53,153 nt of DNA from Paracoccus sp. (in: a-proteobacteria) (GTDB taxonomy: Bacteria > Pseudomonadota > Alphaproteobacteria > Rhodobacterales > Rhodobacteraceae): contig JAUNTZ010000011.1 in NCBI GenBank assembly GCA_030538425.1, forward strand, positions 15,722-68,874, in the 5' to 3' direction. Positions 9,550 through 37,492 of the stretch are shown piece after piece (position 1 is the first letter of the stretch; the number at the start of each line of letters is the position of its first letter). A model generated the notes under the pieces. That model did no database searches, was not told the DNA's origin, and worked only from the letters and a program-made list of their open reading frames with translations. Made by a program: the position numbers and the translations under genes.

Positions 9550-9667
9550 GGTCGGGCAGAGATAGGCGCAAGCCCCTGCCTTGTAAAGAAGCCCGTCGCG
9601 ACCCGTCCGGTTGTGCGACCGGGCGGGCGGCCCTATGGTGGCCCCAAAACGCGTCACGGGGGACAGG

Positions 9668-11338
9668 ATGCAATCGGATATCGAAATTGCCCGCAAGGCG
9701 GTCAAACGTGACATTTTCGAGGTGGCTGCGACTCTCGGACTGGGGCGCGGCGATGTCCTGCCTTACGGACATGACAAGGCCAAGCTGACCCACGAGGCGC
9801 TTGCCGCGCTTGAGGGGAACCCGCGCGGCCGTCTGGTTCTGGTCACCGCGATCAACCCGACCCCGGCGGGTGAGGGCAAGACGACCACCACCGTGGGGCT
9901 GACCGATGCGCTCAACCGGATCGGCAAGCGGGCCACCGTCTGCATCCGCGAGGCCTCGCTTGGTCCCAATTTCGGCCAGAAAGGCGGCGCTGCGGGCGGC
10001 GGCATGGCGCAGATCGTGCCGATGGAGGATATGAACCTTCATTTCACCGGCGATTTTCACGCGATCACGGCGGCGCATAACCTGCTTGCGGCGATGATCG
10101 ACAATCACATCTATTGGGGCAATGCGCTTGAGATCGACACGCGGCGGATTTCCTGGCGGCGGGTGATGGATGTCAACGATCGCGCGCTGCGCCAGATCAC
10201 CGCAGGGCTTGGCGGCGTGGCCAATGGTTTCGCGCGTGAGACCGGCTTTGACATCACCGTGGCGTCCGAGGTGATGGCGATCCTTTGCCTTGCACGCGAT
10301 CTTGAGGATTTGCAGGACCGGCTGGCCCGCATCGTGGTGGCCGAGACCCGCGACCGCCGCCCGGTCACGGTGCGCGATCTGGGGGCCGAGGGCGCGATGG
10401 TGGTGCTGTTGCGCGATGCGCTGCAACCGAACCTTGTCCAGACGCTTGAGAACAACCCGGCCTTCGTCCATGGCGGGCCGTTTGCCAATATCGCCCATGG
10501 CTGCAACTCGGTCATCGCGACCCGTGCCGCACTCGCGCTGTCGGATTATGTCGTGACCGAGGCGGGCTTTGGCGCGGATCTGGGCGCTGAAAAATTCCTC
10601 AACATCAAATGCCGCAAGGCGGGTCTCGCGCCCGATGCCGTGGTGGTGGTGGCGACGATCCGCGCGCTCAAGATGAATGGCGGTGTGGCCTACGCGGATG
10701 TGGGGCGCGAGGATGTCGCGGCGCTGCGCGCGGGCTGCGCCAATCTGGGCCGCCATGTCGGCAATATGCGCGGCTTTGGCCTGCCGGTGGTGGTCGCGAT
10801 CAACCATTTCACCAGCGATACCGAGGCCGAAATCGCCGCCCTGCGCGAGTATTGCGCCGGGCTTGACGTGCCGGTGAGCGTCGCGCGCCATTGGGCCGAG
10901 GGCGGCGCAGGGGCCGAGGAACTGGCGCAACTGGTCGTCGCCGCAGCCGAAGGCCCGCGCGCGGGCTTCGCGCTGACCTATCGCGACGATCTGCCCCTTG
11001 CCGAAAAGATCGACGCGATCTGCCGGCGCATCTATCACGCCGAGGGCGCGCTCATCCCCGAAAGGCTGCGTCGCCAGCTGGCGGACTGGGAACAGGCAGG
11101 CTACGCCGCTCTGCCCGTCTGCATGGCGAAAACGCAATACAGCTTCACCACCGACCCCGACCGCCGCGGCGCCCCCGAAGGCTTTCACATCCCCGTCCGA
11201 GAGCTTCGCCTCGCCGCAGGTGCGGGCTTTGTGGTGGCGATCTGCGGCGAGATCATGACCATGCCCGGCCTCCCCCGCCACCCCGCCGCCGAACGCATCG
11301 GTCTCAACGCGGATGGCGAGATCGAGGGGCTGTTCTGA
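9668..11338 (+). CDS. fhs: Formate-tetrahydrofolate ligase
   Basis: Cytoplasmic enzyme that makes 10-formyl-THF from formate, THF and ATP, feeding C1 metabolism. 556 residues from the ATG at 9668, with a GGGGGAC Shine-Dalgarno-like stretch just upstream; the usual length for the family. Seen: N-terminal [10 protein letters not shown], the P-loop [45 protein letters not shown] and the C-terminal [19 protein letters not shown]. The gene is intact, but its last ~50 codons reappear as four decayed tandem copies directly downstream (see the repeat entries). Confidence 0.96.
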
Positions 11339-11440
11339 GCCTCGCAGCTATTGCGCCGGCGATGCCAGGGCGGGCAGCTTTATTGGGCGGTTAGGAACCT
11401 GCCTGATCGGACATGCTCCGCTTGGTCCATAGTCCCATTG

Positions 11441-11604
11441 CGAGAAGGCTCCCTGTCCAGGTCTTCGACCTTCGCCTTGCCGCAGGCGCGGGATTTGTGG
11501 CGGCAATCTGCGCCGAGGTTATGGCCATGCCGGCCTGCCCCGCCACCTAGCGGTCGCAACGCATCGGGCTTAACGCGGATGGACAGATTGAGCGACTGTT
11601 ATAG
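11441..11604 (+). pseudogene. fhs 3' echo copy 1
   Basis: In the fhs frame from 11461 it reads [17 protein letters not shown], then AEVMAMPACPAT, a TAG stop at 11548-11550, and then [14 protein letters not shown] with a terminal TAG at 11602-11604. Apart from the internal stop it follows the fhs C terminus to the end at the same length. It is a non-functional fragment. Confidence 0.85.
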
Positions 11605-11706
11605 GCGTTGCGAGGTCTGCGCGGGCGATGCCAGGGCGGGCAGCTTTATCGGGCGGTTAGGAACCTGCCTGATCGGACATGCTCCGCTTGGTCCATAGTC
11701 CCATCG

Positions 11707-11879
11707 CGAGAGACCGGCGTCGCGCAGCCAAATGCTCCGACTTCGCCGCCCCGCCGCAGGCGCGGGACTTGTGGCGGCAATCTGCGATGAGGTCATCATC
11801 ACGCCCGTCCGGCCCCGCCATCTAGCGGCCCAACGCATCAGCCTGAACCGCGCATGTCCAGATTGAGGGGTTGCTCTGA
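11707..11879 (+). pseudogene. fhs 3' echo copy 2
   Basis: Readable as LRRPAAGAGLVAAICDEVI followed by PVRPRHLAAQRISLN. One extra base then shifts the frame before a recognisable QIEGLL and terminal TGA at 11877-11879. It is more diverged than copy 1. A unit start block GCGAGAGACCGGCG (11706-11719) precedes it. Confidence 0.8.
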
Positions 11880-11980
11880 GCCTCGCGGCTTTTACTGGGT
11901 GTTGCCGGTGCGGCTGGCATTGTCGGGTCGCGATGAAAGCGCGTGATCGGGCAAGACTAGGTATGATCCTTATTCCCGTC

Positions 11981-12156
11981 GCGAGAGACAGGCGCAGCGC
12001 GCCAGAAGGCTTTCACGTCCCCGTCCAAGAGGTTTGCCTCACCACAGGGGCGGGTTTTTTGACGGCGATCTGCGGCGAGATCATGACTATGCCCGCCTCC
12101 CGGCCGCCGAACGCTTAGGCTCGAACGAGGATGGGCAGATTGAGGGGTTGCTCTGA
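11981..12156 (+). pseudogene. fhs 3' echo copy 3
   Basis: The best-preserved peptide of the array: [17 protein letters not shown], then [17 protein letters not shown], matching the fhs C terminus ([16 protein letters not shown] and [17 protein letters not shown]). It breaks in the next ~12 codons, where a deletion shifts the frame, and QIEGLL plus TGA is again visible at the end (12154-12156). An ATG-started frame from 11933 could encode 61 residues containing this motif, but nothing suggests it is expressed. Confidence 0.83.
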
Positions 12157-12244
12157 GCCTCGCCGCTTCTGGCCGGGCGACGCCGACGCAGGAGGTCTTT
12201 TTCGAACGGCGAGGAATGAACTTGAGCTGGTTAGTGATCCATGT

Positions 12245-12341
12245 CGCGAGAGACCGGCGCGACGAAAGCTCCCACAACCCCGTCCGTGAGCTTCGCCTCG
12301 TCGCCGGGGCGGGCTTCGTGGCGGCGATCTGCGGCGAGACC
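12245..12341 (+). pseudogene. fhs 3' echo copy 4 (truncated)
   Basis: Begins with the same GCGAGAGACCGGCG block, reads NPVRELRLVAGAGFVAAICGE in the fhs frame, and then loses similarity abruptly at about 12341. The remaining ~35 codons of the fhs end are missing. It is the last recognisable unit of the array. Confidence 0.8.
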
Positions 12342-12770
12342 GACCTTGCTATAAAAGGGGCAGTTCGTGGCCCCTTCCTGCGGAGGCAGCTCCACTCACC
12401 CAGCCGGTTCCGCCATAGGCTGTTTTCAAGTGGCTTGCGGCGCTCACATGCGGCTCATGCGATGTTCGATATCTAGTCGTTTCCGGGGCCCGCGGCTTGA
12501 GAAGGCGCAATTCTCACCGCCCTCATACAGGATGCAAATCATCCTCGCCCGCACCACCGCGCAGCGGCGGACTTTACCACGGTCCTCAGCCGCAACGCTC
12601 CGCCGGTGCCCGTCCCCCTCACCCGCGCCCACCACGCCCGACCTCTCTCCCGCACCAACCCAACTGTCTTTTGTCCCCAAATATCCCCGCCGGAGGCACC
12701 CGCAACCTCCACCCGCGCGGCATTGACTTTGCGCATCACAGGGCCATCTTGGGCGAAAGGGGATGCGGAT
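12342..12770. other. Gene-free stretch between the fhs echo array and ccdA
   Basis: No coding sequence with recognisable similarity was found on either strand. From about 12530 it becomes C-rich on the plus strand (CCCGCACC-type runs) and contains one copy of a dispersed intergenic element at 12664-12700. The ccdA promoter should lie in the last ~100 bp, but no clear -35/-10 pair is seen. Confidence 0.5.
12664..12700 (+). repeat. Dispersed intergenic element, copy A
   Basis: CTGTCTTTTGTCCCCAAATA followed by TCCCCGCCGGAGGCACC. It shares CTGTCTTTTGTCYC and AAATATCCC with the copy at 23874-23935 and is related to the three degenerate copies at 36011-36304. The family resembles short intergenic repeats that I associate with Rhodobacteraceae genomes; that link is from memory. 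Confidence 0.6.
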
Positions 12771-13508
12771 ATGCTCGATATCGGTTATTGGGGCGCGGCA
12801 CTGGCGGGGGTTTTGTCCTTTCTCTCGCCCTGCATCCTGCCGATGGTGCCGTTCTACCTGTCCTATATGGCGGGTCTCTCCATGGCCGAGCTGCGCGCCG
12901 ATGGCCGGATCGAGGCGGGGGCGCAGCGCCGTCTGGTGCTTTCGGCTCTGGCTTTTGCGGCCGGGGTGACGACGATCTTTGTTCTGCTGGGACTGGGGGC
13001 GACCGCGCTTGGCCAGCTGTTCTTCGACTGGCGCGAGCCGCTCTCTTATCTCGCGGCGGCGGTGCTGTTTGCCTTTGGCCTGCATTTTCTGGGCATCTGG
13101 CGGATCGGCTTTCTCTATCGCGAGGCGCGGCTTGAGGGCCCTGCGAACCCGGCGGGCATTGCCGGGGCCTATGCGATGGGGCTGGCCTTTGGCTTTGGCT
13201 GGACGCCTTGTGTCGGGCCCGCGTTGGCCGCGATTCTGATGGTCGCCTCGGGAAGCGGGGATCTGTGGCGGGGCGGCAGCCTGTTGCTGGTCTACGGGCT
13301 CGGCATGACCGCGCCTTTTGTCATTGCGGCGCTCTTTGCCAAGCCGTTTCTGGGCTGGGCCGCGCGCAACCGCAGATATCTGGGCCATGTCGAAAAGGTC
13401 ATGGGGGTGATGCTGATCGTCTTTGCCCTGCTGATCGCGACGAACTCGGTCAATCTGATCGCGCAATGGATGATCGAGAATTTCGACTGGTCGCTGACCC
13501 TGCGCTGA
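12771..13508 (+). CDS. ccdA: CcdA-type thiol-disulfide transmembrane reductant transporter
   Basis: Membrane protein of 245 residues with six predicted spans. It carries electrons from cytoplasmic thioredoxin to periplasmic thiol proteins through two membrane cysteines. Seen: LSFLSPCILPMVPFYLSYM with the first Cys (SPC.LP) and FGFGWTPCVGPALAAIL with the second (TPC.GP). ATG at 12771 follows AAAGGGG; earlier ATGs in the C-rich leader give no family similarity. It is followed 11 bp later by a periplasmic thioredoxin gene, so the pair probably forms a periplasmic reducing pathway like SoxV/SoxW or CcdA/CcmG. Confidence 0.92.
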   Translation: MLDIGYWGAALAGVLSFLSPCILPMVPFYLSYMAGLSMAELRADGRIEAGAQRRLVLSALAFAAGVTTIFVLLGLGATALGQLFFDWREPLSYLAAAVLFAFGLHFLGIWRIGFLYREARLEGPANPAGIAGAYAMGLAFGFGWTPCVGPALAAILMVASGSGDLWRGGSLLLVYGLGMTAPFVIAALFAKPFLGWAARNRRYLGHVEKVMGVMLIVFALLIATNSVNLIAQWMIENFDWSLTLR

Positions 13509-35460: not shown

Positions 35461-36003
35461 TCAGCCCAAGGCGCGCCCCAGACGCGGCAGGCCCGCACGT
35501 TTGAAGAGCGCGCGCGGCGTGATCTCGCCCCCGGCGTCGACCGCGCGCTGATGGACCAGGCGCGCAGCCTCCAGAACGCGGTCCGGATGATCGCGCATGA
35601 GTGCGGCCAGAAACTCATCGGGCGCGCGGACCTCAAGCCCCAATGGGGCCAGCATGCGGCGCGGGAAATCGCGCCGGTTCTCGGTCAGGATCAGCTCGGC
35701 CTGCCCGCCCATGGCCGCGGCAATCACATGCCGGTCCCCCTCATCGGGCAGGCGCACGCCTGCAAGCGCGCCGTCTTTCGCGCCCTCGCCCAAGACAAGC
35801 GCCTGCGGAAACCGCGCCCGCAACAGCGCGATCTCAGCCCGCGCGATCTCCCCCGCAACCGGGCCCAGACGGGCCGAGACCGAATGCTGCCACTCATCCA
35901 GAACCGCCTGCGACCAAAGCGGCTCATAAAGATCCGCAACCTCGATCAGCATTTCCCGCATGACCGTCGGAAACAGCACACAGGCATCCAGAAATACGCG
36001 CAT
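35461..36003 (-). CDS. PIN-domain protein, putative VapC-like ribonuclease
   Basis: Protein of 180 residues. PIN acidic residues are visible: Asp6 in MRVFLDACVLFP, DEGDRHVIAAAMGGQAELIL (mid acidic cluster) and LTENRRDFP (typical strand-loop motif). A C-terminal extension of ~45 residues goes beyond a minimal VapC. No antitoxin-like small gene is adjacent: the upstream 300 bp is an echo-repeat array and the downstream neighbour is zwf. It may be a solitary PIN nuclease and not half of a toxin-antitoxin pair. Confidence 0.82.
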   Translation of the reverse strand: MRVFLDACVLFPTVMREMLIEVADLYEPLWSQAVLDEWQHSVSARLGPVAGEIARAEIALLRARFPQALVLGEGAKDGALAGVRLPDEGDRHVIAAAMGGQAELILTENRRDFPRRMLAPLGLEVRAPDEFLAALMRDHPDRVLEAARLVHQRAVDAGGEITPRALFKRAGLPRLGRALG

Positions 36004-36010
36004 CGCAGGC

Positions 36011-36060
36011 CCTTTTCTCTTATGTCGCTAGATATCCCGGGGTAATGCCGCAGGGCACCC
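36011..36060 (-). repeat. Dispersed intergenic element, copy C
   Basis: Degenerate copy (plus-strand reading CTCTTATGTCGC... TATCCCGGGGTAATGCCGCA GGGC) immediately beside echo copy 2 of the methyltransferase 3' end and just upstream of the PIN gene start, so it probably includes that gene's promoter or leader. Confidence 0.6.
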
Positions 36061-36107
36061 TAGCCATCCAGCCTGAAGAACAGCGCCTTGAGATAGCCCG
36101 TTTCCGC
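36060..36107 (-). pseudogene. rlmI-like 3' echo copy 2 (48 bp)
   Basis: Exactly the last 16 codons of the downstream-transcribed methyltransferase: AETGYLKALFFRLDG plus TAG. Compared with the gene it has two base changes, both synonymous (GGG to GGC, TTG to CTG). No indels. Confidence 0.9.
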
Positions 36108-36304
36108 AGACGCTTTGCCGACCTTTACATCATATGTCCCCCATATTCGAGGGCGATGCCGCAGGGCAAAAGGGCCTGCCCACTTAGCTATCCAGCCTAA
36201 AGAACAACGACTTTAGATCGACCGTTTCCGCAGGCGCATCGCTGGCCCTTGTCTTTCAGGTCCCCATTTTCGGGGGTGAAGCCGCAGGGCAAAGGGCGCC
36301 GCCC
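36108..36304 (-). repeat. Tandem spacer/element copies D and E between the 3' echoes
   Basis: Two degenerate copies of the intergenic element (about 36121-36183 and 36248-36304), each sharing CCCCATATTCGGGGGTGA-like and GCCGCAGGGCAAAGGGC blocks, alternate with the 48-bp echo copies. The unit (48 bp of gene end + ~75 bp element) repeats at 121 and 124 bp, measured stop to stop. The whole gap 36004-36304 is made of this array; no gene is in it. Confidence 0.78.
36184..36231 (-). pseudogene. rlmI-like 3' echo copy 1 (48 bp)
   Basis: Reads AETVDLKSLFFRLDS plus TAA, against AETGYLKALFFRLDG plus TAG at the gene end. Same length, no indel, four amino-acid differences; even the stop codon is kept in a different spelling. 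Confidence 0.88.
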
Positions 36305-37492
36305 CTAGCCATCCAGCCTGAAGAACAACGCCTTGAGATACCCCGTTTCCGCCAGTTGCGGCAAGGTCGGGTGATCCGGCCCCGCCTGCCCGGTCTGGAT
36401 CAGCTGCATCCGCCGCCCGGCCCGCCCGATCCCCCGCGCCGAAGCGTTGCGGAATGCGGTCAGATCGGCGGCATGGCTGCACGAACACAGGCCCAGATAA
36501 CCACCCGGCGCGACCAGAGGCGCGGCCATTTTCGCGACCCGCTCATAGGCGCGAAGCCCGGCCTCCAACGCGTTTTTCGAGGGCGCAAAGGCCGGAGGGT
36601 CGCAGATCACCACATCGAATTGCGCCCCGTCAAAGGCCAGCCCCTCAAGCGTGACAAAGGCATCGCCCTGAAGCGTCTCAAGCCGGTCCGACAGGCCCAT
36701 CGCAGCGGCGCCGCGCTCAGCCAGATCAAGCGCGGGCCCTGATCCGTCGACACAGGTCGCATGATCGGCGCCGCCTGCCAGCATCGCCAAACCAAAGCCG
36801 CCGACATGGCTGAACACATCCAGCACACGACCACGCGCCAGCCGTTGTGCAAACGCGTGATTTTCACGCTGATCATAGAACAAGCCGGTTTTCTGCCCGC
36901 CCATCAGATCGGCCAGATAAACCGCGCCGTTCATCGGCACCTCGATCGGCGGCGGCGCCTCTCCACTCAGAACCGCCATCCGCTCAGGCAGCCCCTCAAG
37001 ATGGCGCGCCCGGCCCTGTCCGTTCAGGATCACCGTCGAGATGCCGGTCACATCCCTCAGCGTGCCCGCCAGGTCTTCAATCATCCGCTCGGCCCAGGCC
37101 GCGTTAGGCTGAATGACCGCAGCATCGCCAAAGCGGTCGATCACTACGCCGGGCAGCCCGTCGGCCTCAGCATGGATCAGCCGGTAGAAGGGCGCGTCAT
37201 AGATCCGCTCACGCATGGCCAAAGCCCGCCCGATCCGCGCCGCCAGCCAGTCGCGCCCAAGCGTGGCCCCGCAATCGAGATCCATGACCCGCGCGATGAT
37301 CTTTGATGTCGGGTTGACGGTGACCAAGGCCAGCGGGCGGCGCTCGGCATCCTCCAGCACGGCGAAACTGCCGGGCGTCAGCGCCTTGGTCCGGCGGTCG
37401 GTCACGACCTCGTCGGCAAAGACCCAGGGAAAGCCGTGGCGGATCGCCTGAGGTTTCGATTTCGGTTTGAGGCGGATGATGGGCAGGGTCAT
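36305..37492 (-). CDS. Class I rRNA cytosine methyltransferase, RlmI-like
   Basis: SAM-dependent methyltransferase of 395 residues. An N-terminal PUA domain (IRHGFPWVFADEVVTDRR, ~1-80) is followed by the RlmI/RlmK-type catalytic domain: GQKTGLFYDQRENHAFAQRL, LDVFSHVGGFGLAMLAGGAD (SAM-binding loop) and VICDPPAFAPSK (catalytic motif IV). It probably makes 5-methylcytosine in 23S rRNA. The gene is intact; its last 16 codons recur twice downstream as echoes. ATG at 37490-37492. Divergent from edd. Confidence 0.9.
   Translation of the reverse strand: MTLPIIRLKPKSKPQAIRHGFPWVFADEVVTDRRTKALTPGSFAVLEDAERRPLALVTVNPTSKIIARVMDLDCGATLGRDWLAARIGRALAMRERIYDAPFYRLIHAEADGLPGVVIDRFGDAAVIQPNAAWAERMIEDLAGTLRDVTGISTVILNGQGRARHLEGLPERMAVLSGEAPPPIEVPMNGAVYLADLMGGQKTGLFYDQRENHAFAQRLARGRVLDVFSHVGGFGLAMLAGGADHATCVDGSGPALDLAERGAAAMGLSDRLETLQGDAFVTLEGLAFDGAQFDVVICDPPAFAPSKNALEAGLRAYERVAKMAAPLVAPGGYLGLCSCSHAADLTAFRNASARGIGRAGRRMQLIQTGQAGPDHPTLPQLAETGYLKALFFRLDG

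Follow-up and report, generated by a model that had tools for sequence, protein, structure and literature searches.

The window analysed here, a stretch of 53,153 nucleotides from the draft genome of a Paracoccus sp., contains an intact fhs gene that is followed by several degraded copies of its own end. The question raised by this locus is how the tail of a gene came to be repeated behind a gene that stays whole, and whether the repeats are an isolated accident or one case of a process that acts more widely in this genome. The features of the array and of its flanks, all on the + strand, are the following:

9668..11338, +, intact fhs, formate--tetrahydrofolate ligase, parent gene of the array (Pfam FTHFS, 866 bits, on the ORF 9611-11338; the start at 9668 comes from a crude gene caller)
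11159..11424, +, parent unit, made up of the final 180 bp of fhs and 86 bp of spacer, placed by the repeat register
11425..11604, +, copy 1 of the fhs tail, 72% identical to the own tail; its tblastn match contains a single in-frame TAG
11605..11717, +, spacer 1, 97% identical over 73 bp to the parent spacer (spacer 0, 11352-11424)
11718..11879, +, copy 2 of the fhs tail, 75% identical to the own tail
11880..11986, +, spacer 2, placed by the repeat register
11987..12156, +, copy 3 of the fhs tail, the nearest to fhs in the alignment (82%)
12157..12252, +, spacer 3, placed by the repeat register
12253..12375, +, copy 4, truncated, clear up to 12349 and then with a probable deletion of ~60 nt
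12771..13508, +, next gene, encoding a DsbD/CcdA-like membrane protein (Pfam DsbD_TM on the ORF 12606-13508; the start at 12771 comes from the crude gene caller)

The last ~180 bp of fhs, together with ~90-110 bp of spacer, recur four times downstream, from 11425 to ~12350, and the repeat search gave spacings of 266, 274, 288, and 259 bp between the copies of the tail and grouped the repeats into two families, D1 and D2. Tandem Repeats Finder (TRF) detected a 266-bp period over 11204-11867 and, with looser settings, 4.2 copies over 11201-12338. The self-alignment proposed in the earlier note produced an aligned diagonal at an offset of one unit (909 columns, 71.5% identity, E 2e-124), and E-values of this order exclude a chance origin of the repeats. 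The four decayed tandem copies that the earlier note had described, with these same spacings, were confirmed, and its claim that the gene itself is untouched agrees with an FTHFS match that runs across the length of fhs. The start of the array had been placed at the fhs stop codon, and this has to be corrected since the repeat unit begins near 11159, inside fhs, ~180 bp (60 codons) 5' of the stop. The array consists of head-to-tail copies of one contiguous segment that has one border within fhs and leaves the gene intact.

When compared with the fhs tail by blastn, three copies are 77-82% identical over 133-181 columns and copy 4 is 84% identical over 89 columns, whereas in the multiple alignment the identities of copies 1 to 4 to the tail are 72, 75, 82, and 76%. 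The last copy is clear up to ~12349, and the alignment suggests that it may continue to ~12375 past an internal deletion of ~60 nt. The first two spacers had been noticed as nearly identical, and indeed the pair 11352-11424 and 11618-11690 shares 97% identity over 73 bp beside coding-like parts of 72-82%, which supports the view of the earlier note that the copies differ in age or were partly homogenised. Further downstream, the stretch 12667-12703 recurs with 88-96% identity over 23-34 bp in four other fetched fhs loci (L080, L031, L016, and L050), and a related stretch is present in another array of the own genome (L159 12754-13217); it resembles an intergenic element that is common in the family.

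A phylogenetic tree was built with 27 rows, comprising the own tail, the four copies, and 22 tails of relatives, left from 32 loci after the removal of 10 in which no usable tail was present. The own fhs tail and its four copies form one clade (support 98/97), which shows that the copies derive from the neighbouring fhs of this genome. The end branches of the copies (0.21-0.39) are much longer than that of the fhs gene (0.034), as would be expected for copies released from coding constraint. Divergence is 18-28% between the copies and the gene and 28-40% between one copy and another, and the changes with respect to fhs are distributed over all bases and over the three codon positions (50/210, 38/210, and 62/207, respectively).

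We have also searched for the array in related organisms, as the earlier note had suggested for the fhs locus. Of 110 fetched fhs loci, 105 (the own locus included) carried at least 300 bp of downstream sequence and five were too short; none of the 104 other loci repeats the fhs tail within the next 1.5 kb, so that, in this set, the array is confined to the own locus (L082). A search with the array DNA against 125 genomes of the genus gave matches in 83 of them, own included, and, among the matches listed, none outside the own genome exceeded ~190 bp; only three candidate places were scored per genome, and this search alone is weak evidence of absence. The subset of matches whose place was compared falls on fhs tails, and the nearest fhs of another organism shares ~77% amino acid identity. 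In one relative (G024), 225 bp comprising the fhs tail and downstream DNA are present twice with 99.6% identity (L260 6446-6670 and L109 3067-3291); one copy is separated by 12 bases from the end of contig C1 and follows a gene that we read as encoding a transporter ATPase-like protein, and L109 stops at its copy, which is probably also a contig end.

The fhs array is not the only one in the window. A second gene-tail array, built in the same way, was found on the opposite strand:

35998..36352, -, second array, i.e., the last 48 bp of an RlmI-like gene plus spacer, with a period of 124 (TRF, repeat search)
36305..37492, -, RlmI-like SAM methyltransferase gene, parent of the second array (Pfam Methyltrans_SAM, PUA_3)

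To see whether such arrays are general, a sample of the own genome was examined, consisting of the window and of 35 readable stretches out of 40 (five were masked and dropped), i.e., 648.6 kb or 24%, and it revealed many arrays that the earlier note had missed. Arrays were called with the crude gene caller and self-BLAST (E 1e-6), requiring copies at most 700 bp apart and at least 30% of the array outside genes. This procedure yielded 22 local arrays, i.e., 34 per Mb, or 20 arrays in 595 kb if the window, which was chosen for its array, is left out. The identity within these arrays ranges from ~99% down to below 70%, and the TRF periods at the array loci are mostly of 77-283, a few loci having only shorter periods or none that fit. 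One of the 22 (L171 1-163) is a repeat at a contig edge that overlaps a tRNA-Asp gene. The genes adjoined by the arrays, as identified with Pfam, include aroC, cobU, cobS, a cobQ-type gene, apbE, an nqrA-like gene, lpxI, and a pta-like gene, and by our own reading polA as well; they are ordinary and unrelated, except for three cobalamin genes located on one contig (C3), where cobS, cobU, and the cobQ-type gene each have a gene-end array (L133 10226-10517, L133 12158-12564, and L152 10667-11413). The highest copy number was observed after the gene that we read as polA-like, with ~10 decayed copies of a period of ~106 (L153 2435-3452). At L149, two segments that are 91% identical (2020-2132 and 2570-2683) each begin a few bases past the end of a called gene and are separated by a small gene.

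When 25 arrays of the own genome were compared all-versus-all, the fhs array did not match any of the others, and only the array at L152 10667 shared stretches (of at most 55 columns), namely with those at L159 12754 and L158 19152; the stretch common to L152 10667 and L159 12754 is probably a common intergenic element. Arrays inside genes are also more numerous in the own sample, with 12 (18.5 per Mb) against 1 (3.1 per Mb) in the first genus sample and 6 (4.0 per Mb) in the wider set of loci, so that a general increase of tandem duplication is possible. Several of the 12 resemble protein repeats, and three (L152 520-880, L159 15401-15720, and L166 12416-12693) resemble boundary arrays that contain short doubtful ORFs and are kept outside the 22.

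In the sample, the arrays show a bias towards gene 3' ends. A called gene 3' end is included in 16 of the 22 arrays and a called 5' end in 6, the start sites of the crude gene caller being uncertain. Sorting by hand, done after the arrays had been seen, gave 12 arrays with only a 3' end, none with only a 5' end, three that cover a stop and the next start, five between genes, the L149 array, which lies around the small gene, and the tRNA case. One of the 12 covers both ends of a convergent pair, and the RlmI array was counted with them despite a 6-bp overlap of its edge with the next called start. As a null, units were placed at random on gene maps of the genus, and among those that break no gene the expectation was ~25% 3'-only, 29% 5'-only, 22% both, and 23% between genes. 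The binomial probability of the 12:0 distribution is 5e-5; it becomes 4e-4 with the tRNA case taken as 5', and 1e-4 for 11:0 without the RlmI array. Arrays occupy 7 of 77 convergent gaps, 14 of 424 co-oriented gaps, and 0 of 73 divergent gaps (convergent versus divergent, p 0.014). Five arrays span a stop and the next start (L133 12158, L144, and L166 9490, plus L159 15401 and L166 12416), and in all of them both frames are whole, as tandem duplication predicts.

The same procedure applied to 25 genomes of the genus detected 6 arrays in 1518.5 kb (0 in 318.5 kb, after four masked stretches were dropped, 4 in 400 kb, 0 in 400 kb, and 2 in 400 kb). These six include a tandem tRNA-Asp pair (L202 8543-8727) and one orthologous array that appears in two stretches from sister genomes (L249 and L257), and both were kept in the counts. 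A wider baseline of 80 fhs loci, mostly from Rhodobacteraceae with a few other Alphaproteobacteria, gave 2 arrays in ~1497 kb. A count free of gene calls, restricted to tandem offsets of at most 350 bp that are not a multiple of three, resulted in 19 cases in 648.6 kb of the own genome, 3 in 1518.5 kb of the genus, and 1 in 1497.5 kb of the wider set, i.e., 29, 2.0, and 0.7 per Mb (own versus genus, p 6e-8). The density in the own genome is thus 8.6 times that of the genus by the array call and 15 times by the count free of gene calls. Ten of the 18 genes that bear or flank arrays have a homologue in the genus stretches, and no called array adjoins any of these ten there, the nearest being ~870 bp away (L211). 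On the basis of this sample and of the crude gene caller, the own genome seems to carry many more gene-end arrays than its relatives. The orthologous arrays of two relatives, L249 3755-4065 (G014) and L257 3649-4066 (G019), are intergenic, have a repeated GGGAGGAGG motif, and resemble tandem CcsR-type small RNAs; neither has an Rfam match at the gathering thresholds.

The own assembly, a draft, consists of 92 contigs and is 86.6% complete. In profile searches, mutS, mutL, recJ, and addA scored above the cut-offs, and a recG-like gene scored 627 bits; this is below its cut-off of 659, which 11 of the 12 relatives examined also failed to reach. The xseA gene had no match in the own assembly and had one in 29 of the 31 genomes searched (the misses being the own genome and G017). 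The loss of exonuclease VII was considered as a cause of the excess and dropped, because purD, the neighbour of xseA in the relatives, is missing as well (only a weak 26% match was found in the own assembly), and the absence of both is likely an assembly gap.

The borders of the arrays can be read by eye in eight cases with ~86% identity or more. The shared border sequence is of 11 nt in L144 (TGAGACGGCGG), 8 nt in L136 (ATCCGCGC), 6 nt in L166 9490, ~5 nt in L133, ~4-6 nt in L153, 1 nt in L159 15401, and 0 nt in L152 520 and L166 12416; the border alignments also listed L159 12754, L152 18656, L202, and L059, which are outside the eight scored. In the fhs array the junctions are eroded: GACCGCCG is found at the in-gene border of the unit, and GACCGGCG at 11712 and 12252, which are two of the four spacer ends; another of these ends carries it with one mismatch. 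No common motif was seen by eye at the borders of the arrays compared, and both unit length and border vary between arrays.

Taking these data together, the explanation that we consider probable is that the fhs array is the product of an ordinary tandem duplication at short homology, which was spared at a site where no coding sequence or promoter was disturbed and then decayed neutrally. The earlier note had named slippage or unequal recombination as the simplest explanation, and this remains the best fit because the copies originate from the own gene, there is no integrase or reverse transcriptase match on the contig, and the borders share short sequences or none. In a first tandem duplication, two points would have been joined, one ~180 bp 5' of the fhs stop and the other ~90-110 bp 3' of it, and the probable means is slippage or illegitimate recombination at a short match. 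With only a 3' boundary in the unit, fhs would remain whole and the additional tail would become non-coding DNA behind it. The rise to four downstream copies and the partial homogenisation of two spacers could be due to subsequent slippage, conversion, or unequal exchange between units, and point changes and small indels would then have eroded the copies. The same process would act at many gene boundaries of the lineage, where selection would remove the cases that break a gene or duplicate a promoter, so that the surviving arrays would be those at harmless sites. That promoter copy number may matter is indicated by a 57-bp promoter tandem duplication of Mycobacterium tuberculosis (PMC12817950). 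Neutral slippage alone, however, does not account for the excess over the relatives, the own genome having mutS, mutL, recJ, addA, and a recG-like gene, and three of the eight scored borders share only 0-1 nt. In addition, the null expects 5'-only arrays to be about as frequent as 3'-only arrays and the observed ratio is 12:0; therefore, either a selective filter or a step directed to 3' ends is needed.

Such a directed step, in which transcript 3' ends would set off duplication, for instance through R-loops, termination, or transcription-replication conflict, and gene tails would be copied with their spacers, finds support in the 12:0 ratio, in the preference for convergent over divergent gaps, and in the confinement of the excess to the own genome in the samples. 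We nevertheless regard it as unlikely, since the same bias is predicted by selection against promoter duplication, the five arrays that cross a stop and the next start belong to close co-oriented genes where no transcript end is expected, and terminator-like sites between 11100 and 12900 are at chance level (one found, 1.5 expected). In the same manner, it is doubtful that we are dealing with a Paracoccus-like lineage in which a duplication process that prefers the 3' ends of transcribed genes has long acted at many loci, giving a density roughly nine to fifteen times that of the genus. The 97% identity of two spacers beside much more diverged coding-like parts could instead reflect constraint, and the spacers might be functional repeats, such as a tandem array of small RNAs or terminators, with the gene tails as passengers; tandem small RNAs with a CCTCCTCCC motif exist in this bacterial family, and an array with that motif occurs in two relatives of the genus. 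We give this idea little credit, because no Rfam family matches 11000-13000 at E up to 1, the search for sigma-70-type promoters and for terminators gave no such site beyond chance, the divergence of spacers 2 and 3 is strong, and the fhs array matches none of the other own arrays in the comparison of 25; the array most probably has no function.

The integrases of many islands use gene 3' ends, so that the copies might be remnants of mobile DNA, either island attachment sites stacked at the fhs 3' end or the product of a diversity-generating retroelement, and the duplicated 225 bp of G024 indicate that duplication of an fhs tail is possible elsewhere. This origin is highly improbable: Phage_integrase (PF00589) has no match on the contig of the window (C30) at E up to 0.001, its five matches being on other contigs, and the variation of unit length and border between arrays also speaks against it. 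The island attachment sites were thus discarded for the window, and so was the retroelement, since the sole RVT_1 match (PF00078) of the assembly is on contig C83, where no array was called in 11.9 kb, and the copies have changed with respect to fhs no more often at A (17/86) than at the other bases (133/541; C 65/230, G 39/207, and T 29/104). An assembly artefact deserves to be considered in a draft of this kind, with one array placed at a contig edge over a tRNA-Asp gene, but it is just as improbable, since mis-assembly of one sequence cannot yield copies that differ to such an extent from the gene and from each other, and similar arrays are found on many contigs.

If taken alone, the fhs array is a curiosity, an ordinary scar; the interesting part is the density of such scars in this genome and their 3' bias. 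They suggest that small tandem duplications can accumulate at gene ends and decay there in one bacterial lineage while its relatives show hardly any, and the rate, the repair background, and the selective filter of such duplications become testable by comparison. They also carry a warning for annotation, as these arrays can give rise to spurious short ORFs and to false pseudogene calls beside intact genes. No description of gene-tail arrays in this bacterial family was found among the titles and the beginnings of the abstracts in the open-access literature searched.

Some known systems resemble these arrays in part. Bacterial minisatellites or VNTRs, such as the mycobacterial interspersed repetitive units, are intergenic head-to-tail repeats, some of them at gene boundaries, that are thought to arise by slippage or recombination. 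The arrays of the own genome are likewise tandem, with periods of tens to hundreds of bp, but a tail of the neighbouring gene can often be recognised in their unit, they have many decayed copies and mostly unrelated units, and they are known here from one strain. RecA-independent tandem duplication between short direct repeats occurs in Escherichia coli and Salmonella, and it shares with our case the intact gene at the border, the short shared sequence at several junctions, and the occurrence at unrelated loci; what differs is that those events belong to the laboratory, while small decayed duplications, biased to 3' ends, are spread over this genome, and that some borders share no bases. The tandem repeat regions of Borgs are described as pervasive and virtually absent from the host genome, and as rapidly evolving, recently formed, A-enriched repeats on an extrachromosomal element (PMC9879509). 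They are similar in that pervasive tandem repeats mark one kind of genome and are flanked by partial repeats, and different in that most of the arrays reported here are decayed and belong to the GC-rich draft genome of a bacterium (PMC9879509).
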